From NCBI RefSeq assembly GCF_003609645.1, contig NZ_MCIB01000001.1, forward strand, positions 1 through 64,000: a stretch of DNA of 64,000 bases. Reading direction: 5' to 3'. Below, in pieces: positions 38,156 through 39,965 of the stretch; position 1 is the stretch's first letter, and each line of letters starts with the position of its first letter. This DNA is from Thermohalobacter berrensis (lineage in GTDB: Bacteria > Bacillota > Clostridia > Tissierellales > Thermohalobacteraceae). The notes beneath the pieces were generated by a model. That model did not search any database. It saw only the letters and a program-made list of their open reading frames with translations, and was not told where the DNA came from. Made by a program: the position numbers and the translations under genes.

Positions 38156-38899
38156 ATGGACCCAGTGGCTTTTGAAATTTTTGGAATATCTATAAGATGG
38201 TATGGAATACTTATTTCTGTGGGAATGATAATTGGAACTATATTGGCAACAAGGGAAGCAAAAAGGGTAGGTTTAGATGAAGAGACATTAATTGATTTGC
38301 TCATTATTGCAGTTCCTTTGGCAATAGTTGGTGCAAGACTTTATTATGTGATTTTTAACTGGGATTATTATAAAGGAGATATATATAAAATTATAAACAT
38401 TAGAGGTGGAGGCTTAGCAATACATGGTGGAGTTATTGCTGCAGTAATAGTAGCACTAATATATTGTAAAATTAAAGATGTTAGCTTTTGGCAGATTGCA
38501 GATATAACTTCACCAAGTATTATATTAGGTCAAGCTATTGGTAGATGGGGAAATTTTATAAACAAAGAAGCCTATGGAACTCCAACAGATTTACCTTGGG
38601 GTATAATGATAAATGGTCAAAAGGTTCATCCAACATTTTTATATGAATCTTTATGGAATTTTTTAGTCTTTCTATTTTTACTTTGGTATAGAAAAAATAA
38701 AGTGCAAGTAAAAGGGGAGGTTTTCTTACTATATTTGGCCTTATATTCCCTTGGAAGATTTTTTATAGAAGGCTTAAGGATAGATAGTTTAATGTTGGGG
38801 CCTATAAGAGTAGCACAGCTTATTAGTATATTATTAATACTTGTTAGTTTATATTTATTCTTTCAGAGAAGACAAAAACATATAAAAAATGTAGAATAA
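38156..38899 (+). CDS. lgt: prolipoprotein diacylglyceryl transferase
   Basis: A 247-residue membrane enzyme that attaches diacylglycerol to the lipobox cysteine of prolipoproteins such as the PstS and YhcN-like proteins of this window. Seven hydrophobic segments are seen. The signatures are IRWYGILISVG, RGGGLAIHGGVI and GQAIGRWGNFINKEAYG (the essential Arg and Asn), plus HPTFLYESLWN. GGAG precedes the ATG. It is monocistronic. Confidence 0.97.
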   Translation: MDPVAFEIFGISIRWYGILISVGMIIGTILATREAKRVGLDEETLIDLLIIAVPLAIVGARLYYVIFNWDYYKGDIYKIINIRGGGLAIHGGVIAAVIVALIYCKIKDVSFWQIADITSPSIILGQAIGRWGNFINKEAYGTPTDLPWGIMINGQKVHPTFLYESLWNFLVFLFLLWYRKNKVQVKGEVFLLYLALYSLGRFFIEGLRIDSLMLGPIRVAQLISILLILVSLYLFFQRRQKHIKNVE

Positions 38900-39005: not shown

Positions 39006-39034
39006 TTGACTTGTGGAGAAATATGTAATAGAAT
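39006..39034 (+). promoter_or_regulatory. promoter of Spo0E-like gene
   Basis: TTGACT (39006-39011), 17-bp spacer, TAGAAT (39029-39034). Confidence 0.6.
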
Positions 39035-39076
39035 GACAATATCTTGCAATTAAAATAAGGGTAGGAGTTGGTGAAA

Positions 39077-39223
39077 GTGACTATCAATGATCAGATTGTT
39101 GCTTTAAGAAACGAACTAAACAAGTCTATTGAGAAAGCAGAAAGTTATGAAGTAATTTATAATCTAAGTATTAAATTAGACAAACTAATAACTCTATTCT
39201 ATAAGACAACAAATCTGAAATAA
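39077..39223 (+). CDS. Spo0E-family aspartyl-phosphate phosphatase (48 residues)
   Basis: A very short frame, GTG start 9 bases after AGGAG. The peptide has two predicted helices (QIVALRNELNKSIEKAES and YEVIYNLSIKLDKLITLFYK). The second contains the Spo0E motif S-x-x-L-D-x-L-I-x-x-x-Y. Spo0E-type peptides dephosphorylate Spo0A and hold back sporulation. The identification rests on the motif and length. Confidence 0.75.
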   Translation: MTINDQIVALRNELNKSIEKAESYEVIYNLSIKLDKLITLFYKTTNLK

Positions 39224-39387
39224 CAAAGAAAATTCCTACCACTTTAAACCACACTTAAAATTAATAAATTATATAAAATGATTTTCAAAAATGGGATTAT
39301 AAACCACCATTAAAAATGTGATTGAACACTTTTGTTTTATATAGGTATATATTACTATTTTTAATAAAAATAAATCTAGAATTGTGT

Positions 39388-39418
39388 AAAAAAGCAGCTT
39401 ATAGCTGCTTTTTTTTAT
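39388..39418 (+). terminator. terminator upstream of mraZ
   Basis: AAAAAAGCAGCT / AGCTGCTTTTTT with a three-base loop and long T run; it probably ends the Spo0E-like transcript. Confidence 0.93.
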
Positions 39419-39478
39419 TTCAGTAAAAAAAATTACTAATTATTGAAGGATTTAAACTTTTGTTGTAGAAATAATAAA

Positions 39479-39506
39479 TGTGGTTTAAAGTGGTAGGAAG
39501 TGGGGG
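39479..39506 (+). promoter_or_regulatory. MraZ operator (three GTGG boxes, 10-bp phase)
   Basis: GTGG recurs at 39480, 39490 and 39500 within TGTGGTTT-AAAGTGGT-AGGAAGTGGG. MraZ is known to bind direct repeats of GTGG/TGGG type at 10-bp spacing in front of its own gene, and this cluster begins about 55 bases upstream of mraZ. Confidence 0.75.
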
Positions 39507-39533: not shown

Positions 39534-39965
39534 ATGTTTATTGGTGAATATCAACATTCTATAGATAAAAAAGGTAGACTTATAATACCTGCAAAATTTA
39601 GAGAAGCCCTAGGGAACTCTTTTATATTGACTAAAGGGTTAGATAATTGTTTGTTTGTATATCCTTTAGATGAATGGAGAAAATTTGAAGAAAAGCTGAA
39701 CTCACTTCCATTGACTAGAAAAGATGCTAGGGCTTTTGTAAGATTCTTTTTTGCAGGAGCTACTGAGTGTCAACTAGATAAACAAGGTAGAATATTAATT
39801 CCTAGCAATTTAAGAAAACATTGTAAATTAGAGAAAGACGCCGTTATAATAGGTGTTTCAAATAGAGTTGAAATATGGAGTTTAGAAGAATGGGATTCAT
39901 ATAATGAGGCAGATGATTTAAGTTATGAAAACATAGCTGAAAAAATGGCTGAATTAGGAATATAG
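39534..39965 (+). CDS. mraZ: transcriptional regulator MraZ
   Basis: A 143-residue AbrB-fold protein with two copies of the swapped-hairpin DNA-binding motif: [24 protein letters not shown] and [21 protein letters not shown]. It usually represses the dcw cluster, of which it is the first gene. GGAG lies 9 bases before the ATG. The operator is described separately. Confidence 0.97.

Follow-up and report, generated by a model that had tools for sequence, protein, structure and literature searches.

A conserved inverted copy of the mraZ operator behind a spo0E-like gene in Thermohalobacter berrensis and its relatives suggests a regulatory link to the division operon

MraZ recognizes tandem repeats with the consensus (AAAGTGKN3)3 (PMC5282649), and binds such repeats as an octamer (PMC5282649; PMC7761207). 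The 5'-leader of mraZ has itself been described as an RNA in Rhodobacter sphaeroides, where UpsM is a terminated species of 268 nt (PMC5089854). The S. aureus icaR mRNA provides a case in which a 3'UTR pairs with the 5'UTR, holding back translation (PMC3868564). Spo0A is the target of Spo0E, and C. difficile sporulates more when Spo0E is lost (PMC11115286). Neither a distal nor an inverted MraZ site turned up in the papers open to search; the analysis presented here concerns a candidate for both, found between a Spo0E-like gene and mraZ.

The stretch of DNA analyzed (the window) comprises 64,000 nucleotides of Thermohalobacter berrensis and includes the gene order lgt (38156–38899), Spo0E-like gene, terminator, mraZ, rsmH and an ftsL-like gene. 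The Spo0E-like gene (Pfam SpoOE-like) occupies 39077–39223 on the plus strand, with an open frame from a TTG at 39068 and a likely GTG start at 39077, and is preceded on the same strand by a predicted sigma-A promoter located by consensus scan (TTGACT-N17-TAGAAT, 39006–39034; TTGACA...TAAAAT at the same position in relatives) and by a Shine-Dalgarno region, GGTAGGAG, at 39060–39067. The distal copy of the operator lies on the minus strand at 39233–39253, with its GTGG boxes at 39249–39252 and 39239–39242 of that strand; it starts 10 nt past the stop codon of the Spo0E-like gene and ends 134 nt before an intrinsic terminator (39388–39414, plus strand) that separates this copy from the mraZ promoter. 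Consequently, the element is expected to fall within the Spo0E-like mRNA, in its predicted 3'UTR. Beyond the terminator are a sigma-H-like promoter, AGGATTT-N12-TAGAAA (39447–39471), with an architecture common to related mraZ loci, the proximal MraZ operator (39479–39503, with GTGG at 39480, 39490 and 39500) and mraZ (39534–39965), all on the plus strand. As the promoter stands right before the GTGG boxes, the operator itself is predicted to form the first bases of the mraZ mRNA. A small Spo0E-like gene between lgt and mraZ was present in ∼20 of the 101 mraZ loci examined and recurs in distant Clostridia.

The preliminary description had reported a perfect inverted match of 21 bases, 225 bp apart, and had considered its occurrence by chance very unlikely; both statements hold. 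The sequence at 39233–39253 (TTCCTACCACTTTAAACCACA) is the exact reverse complement of 39479–39499 (TGTGGTTTAAAGTGGTAGGAA), 225 nt separate the two arms, and at 90% identity the arms extend to 30 nt. This is the longest inverted repeat in the 310-bp spacer, and the maximum among 5000 dinucleotide shuffles of that spacer was 17 nt, with none reaching 21. Inverted repeats of at least 18 nt in the window have far-apart arms only in the 39233/39479 pair, the other three clusters being hairpin-spaced, and a search of the whole 2.76-Mb genome with up to three mismatches placed the 21-nt arm at these two sites only. The motif GTGGN6GTGG is likewise confined within the window to the distal and proximal sites (0.27 expected). 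The two copies had also been said to share the same 10-bp-phased GTGG boxes, which is correct for the two boxes present in the distal copy, but the third proximal box (39500–39503) has no distal counterpart. A third, imperfect piece (TAAACCACCATTAAAA, with a single CCAC) is found at 39300–39315, 55 bp past the distal element and out of the 10-bp phase.

The comparison with relatives covered 101 distinct mraZ loci, five more, 16 members of the order (a few overlapping the earlier set) and 60 members of the class. A distal site was defined as a two-box, reverse-oriented match with a score above 10 against a profile built from 309 boxes, and nine loci qualified: the window, three Caloranaerobacter-type genomes (L003, Caloranaerobacter azorensis; L084; L085) that together with it make up the window's family (f1), two other Tissierellales families (f12, L107; f8, L004 and L005) and Geosporobacter (L039 and L045). 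The preliminary description had proposed a search for paired sites in other Clostridia and would have been contradicted by their absence from all close relatives; the site is present in all four members of the window's family, and in the three further lineages. Its two-box profile score is 12–23 in all four lineages and mostly negative elsewhere, shuffles match it at a frequency of 0 to 0.007, and in the window the score is 21.6, which no shuffle equals. An inverted pair of that strength was not found in the ∼150 other mraZ loci (∼90% are without the site), including eleven further loci with a spo0E-like gene at the same position. In 9 of 9 loci the site is oriented opposite to mraZ and lies at the spo0E-like gene, inside its predicted transcript. 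In seven loci (f1, f12 and f8) it falls between the spo0E-like stop codon and the terminator, at 10–12 nt from the stop codon in the window's family, at the same place in f12 and at ∼32–35 nt in f8. The two Geosporobacter species carry it in the 5'UTR, where the spo0E-like transcript is predicted to start (about +1), and one of them has a mismatch there. On a tree of MraZ and RsmH this distribution needs at least three changes, with Geosporobacter separate. Across 391 Clostridia genomes, the exact TTTAAA-spaced pair occupies both strands in the window's genome only, the other three family members being outside that sample; thus, the exact form is family-limited. Two loci differ in layout. In L085, the interval from the spo0E-like terminator to the mraZ promoter is longer by ∼380 bp (about −560 to −180 from mraZ), with the distal element kept. 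In L114 (G008), a forward three-box MraZ operator is found ∼340 bp ahead of the mraZ start codon (about −338), with none in the 110 bp before the start, possibly because of a long leader or an intervening gene.

The pattern of conservation within the site bears on the choice between recognition as DNA and pairing as RNA. In both the published MraZ consensus (PMC5282649) and the 309-box profile, little constraint falls on the three positions that follow a GTGG, yet in the distal island of the four family genomes (TCCTACCACTTTAAACCAC) the spacer bases are conserved at 8 of 8 positions and the box-core at 7 of 8; in the flanks, only 10 of the 73 columns are conserved (p = 1.4e-6 for the spacer bases). 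The sole box-core change is GTGG to GCGG in C. azorensis; the T concerned is kept in 308 of 309 proximal boxes of relatives, and the C that replaces it here still allows a G-U pair to the mraZ leader. Including G-U pairs, the element is complementary to its own mraZ leader over 19–22 nt in the window's family and over 20 contiguous nt in f12, where it matches its own genome's variant of the proximal sequence. Relaxed RNAduplex energies, which count scattered pairs and were used for ranking only, gave z-scores of −3.9 to −6.7 for the five loci of the window's family and f12, whereas the remaining 15 spo0E-linked loci all stayed at −2.2 or above. In a model of the read-through transcript, pairing between the element and the mraZ leader was 0.98–1.00 in these two families. 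Complementarity to the leader that exceeds both chance and what the boxes themselves contribute is a property of f1 and f12, but not of f8, where it has been lost (z about −1) while the two phased boxes are kept with different spacers. Taken together, the conserved spacers, the GCGG change with its G-U pair and the co-variation in f12 favor base pairing, and conservation extending to bases that MraZ does not read points to pairing of RNA, whether in addition to protein binding or in its place.

The element is also complementary to the Shine-Dalgarno of the spo0E-like gene. In the window's family, GGUAGGAG (Shine-Dalgarno) forms 10 contiguous pairs, G-U included, with CUCCUACC (UUCCUACC in the window; p = 0.003–0.01), the 5' half of the element. 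In f8 the same pairing is made by other sequence, with 10 contiguous pairs between AAGGAAGGUG and CACUUUCCUU (p = 0.013–0.02). The Shine-Dalgarno/element pairs thus differ by family (GGTAGGAG/CTCCTACC in f1, AAGGAAGGTG/CACTTTCCTT in f8), and the complementarity is significant only in these two among 20 spo0E-linked loci, f12 having only six pairs. Partition-function folding gave a probability of Shine-Dalgarno/3'UTR pairing of 0.74–0.97 in the six 3'-element mRNAs tested and of 0–0.59 in the others. Shuffled UTRs in the same mRNAs gave a mean of 0.4–0.6, so the excess of the real pairing is moderate, and f12 is not significant (16/40). In a longer transcript model of f8 the Shine-Dalgarno prefers a local partner, and in f1 a foreign Shine-Dalgarno (from Geosporobacter) pairs with the element as well as the family's own. 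The Shine-Dalgarno region at 39060–39071 (GGTAGGAGTTGG) and the mraZ operator at 39492–39503 (GGTAGGAAGTGG) have 10 of 12 bases in common, and a single antisense element can therefore pair with both; the two complementarities are not independent, since the purine-rich GTGG boxes resemble Shine-Dalgarno sequences. The duplex of the element with the mraZ leader is about two-fold more stable than that with the Shine-Dalgarno, at 37 and at 65 °C.

In B. subtilis, the sigma-H consensus consists of RnAGGAwWW, a short spacer and GAAT. Of 102 mraZ loci from relatives (Tissierellales and related Clostridia), 74 have the pattern AGGAWWW-N12-NNGAAN directly ahead of the three GTGG boxes, with 2.6 expected; this architecture resembles the B. 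subtilis sigma-H consensus and suggests that in these groups the division operon may be driven by a sporulation or stationary-phase sigma factor.

These observations are best accommodated, tentatively and with somewhat less than an even case, by a distal site that acts as a 3'UTR element masking translation of the spo0E-like mRNA and alternatively pairs with the 5' end of the mraZ mRNA. The element would have originated when the operator and leader of mraZ were copied in inverted form. Within a Spo0E-like transcript that ends at the terminator, its 5' half (UUCCUACC) would pair with the Shine-Dalgarno (GGUAGGAG) of the same mRNA and hold translation back, as in icaR; the mraZ mRNA 5' end (UGUGGUUUAAAGUGGUAGGAA), which contains a putative Shine-Dalgarno mimic, would capture the element through a 19–22-bp duplex, by which spo0E-like translation could be released and/or the stability of the mraZ mRNA altered. 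In addition, the element may serve MraZ as a binding site in DNA. The full toggle, in which the 3'UTR of the spo0E-like mRNA hides that mRNA's ribosome-binding site and a sigma-H-driven mraZ transcript exposes it, is rather unlikely as a whole. What is observed directly is how the sequences relate and how far they are conserved; from this we infer that they are transcribed and pair inside cells, and which way the regulation would run.

The main alternative is that the distal site is an auxiliary second MraZ-binding site, the inverted pair of boxes being bound as DNA by the MraZ ring, which has several DNA-binding faces. This reading comes close behind the RNA element, though it too is less likely than not. 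Binding there could concentrate MraZ around the mraZ operator, or it could affect the spo0E-like gene: the site would be an operator within the promoter in Geosporobacter and, in the window's family, an insulator or roadblock downstream of the gene. Strict looping is only one version of this idea. In its favor, the distal site shows the 10-bp-period (AAAGTGKN3)-type repeats to which octameric MraZ is known to bind (PMC5282649, PMC7761207), the scores of the four lineages stand out from both shuffles and the other mraZ loci, and the window holds GTGGN6GTGG at the two sites only. The constrained boxes and free spacers of a protein site are seen in f8, as protein recognition predicts, but not in the window's family, where the N3 spacers are conserved. 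Likewise, the −10/+1 placement expected of an MraZ operator is found only in Geosporobacter and not in the window, where the site follows the spo0E-like stop codon. Further evidence against a DNA site comes from its two boxes rather than the usual three, from broken boxes (GCGG in C. azorensis; ATGG and TTGG as the second box in both Geosporobacter species), from spacing and phase that are not conserved, and from an inversion that is constant even though protein binding needs no orientation. Geosporobacter appears imperfect under both models. A conserved minus-strand (antisense) promoter was not seen in the right flank of the distal site, and the flanks are unconserved. No genome-wide MraZ regulon emerged either, as a looser two-box pattern gave 21 matches against 14 for a reversed control, the three cleanest being the window's own. 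On balance the sequences slightly favor an RNA element over a DNA site for the window's own family, and the two functions are not exclusive.

In the preliminary description, the second site was proposed to allow looping between the end of the Spo0E-like gene and the mraZ promoter. A single MraZ ring joining both sites to repress mraZ now appears improbable. Paired sites exist and are conserved, and MraZ is multivalent (PMC7761207, PMC5282649), but the centre-to-centre distances are 182, 219, 246, 258, 258, 285, 384, 392 and 602 bp, and the helical phase is not shared (fractional turns of.14 to.86). The distal site keeps its position by the Spo0E-like gene and not at a constant distance from the mraZ promoter, and ∼90% of mraZ loci manage without it. 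Looping is thus unsupported; the variable spacing argues against an obligatory loop with a set geometry, but not against loose co-operation. What survives of the original interpretation is an inverted two-box look-alike of the MraZ operator with paired sites in relatives.

It is very improbable that the distal copy is a functionless relic of an inverted operator duplication. A relic would fit the patchy distribution, with its several changes on the tree, and arms that are a little more alike than the core alone, but not a 19-nt island conserved across two genera between diverged flanks, nor the presence of the site at the same place in several lineages. The ends of a small mobile element (MITE), which the inverted 21-bp arms ∼225 bp apart might recall, can be discounted, as the genome holds only two arm copies, of which one is none other than the mraZ operator, the sequence they enclose varies among relatives while the arms stay, and a target-site duplication was looked for and none was seen. 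Plasmid-borne relatives of the spacer were also sought and none was found, and a search of Rfam returned no family above the gathering score, with one sub-threshold chance match at the terminator.

Collectively, the conserved element suggests a real regulatory link between the spo0E-like gene and mraZ. With a sigma-H-like mraZ promoter, the proposed circuit would connect division-operon expression with the Spo0A phosphatase; given the action of Spo0E on Spo0A and the C. difficile phenotype, it would link transcription of the division operon with the timing of sporulation. A central question is when a spore former quits normal division for sporulation, and a conserved tie between a gene of the Spo0A phosphatase family and the division promoter and leader would be a direct, testable wire. 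If the full toggle were true, dcw expression would feed back negatively on Spo0A~P, and the same sequence would be both DNA operator and regulatory RNA, the mraZ 5' end being MraZ operator and Shine-Dalgarno mimic at once. The site is also a possible second target for MraZ, whose role is still debated.

Among known systems, the dcw MraZ operators of E. coli, Mollicutes and B. cenocepacia share with this locus the GTGG/AAAGTGG boxes at a 10-bp period, and three boxes beside the transcription start make the proximal site a standard operator of this type, whereas the distal copy in the window is inverted, has two boxes and lies behind the stop codon of another gene. The auxiliary looping operators of the lac, gal and ara type similarly flank a spacer with two operator copies, but here spacing and phase are not fixed and the box numbers are unequal (two versus three). 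UpsM of Rhodobacter sphaeroides (PMC5089854) also places the mraZ leader region in RNA-based control of the dcw operon; it differs in being a terminated 268-nt leader of unrelated sequence without relation to Spo0E. The icaR mRNA of S. aureus (PMC3868564) likewise carries a C-rich 3'UTR motif complementary to its own Shine-Dalgarno, while the element proposed here is in addition complementary over ∼20 nt to the next operon's leader.
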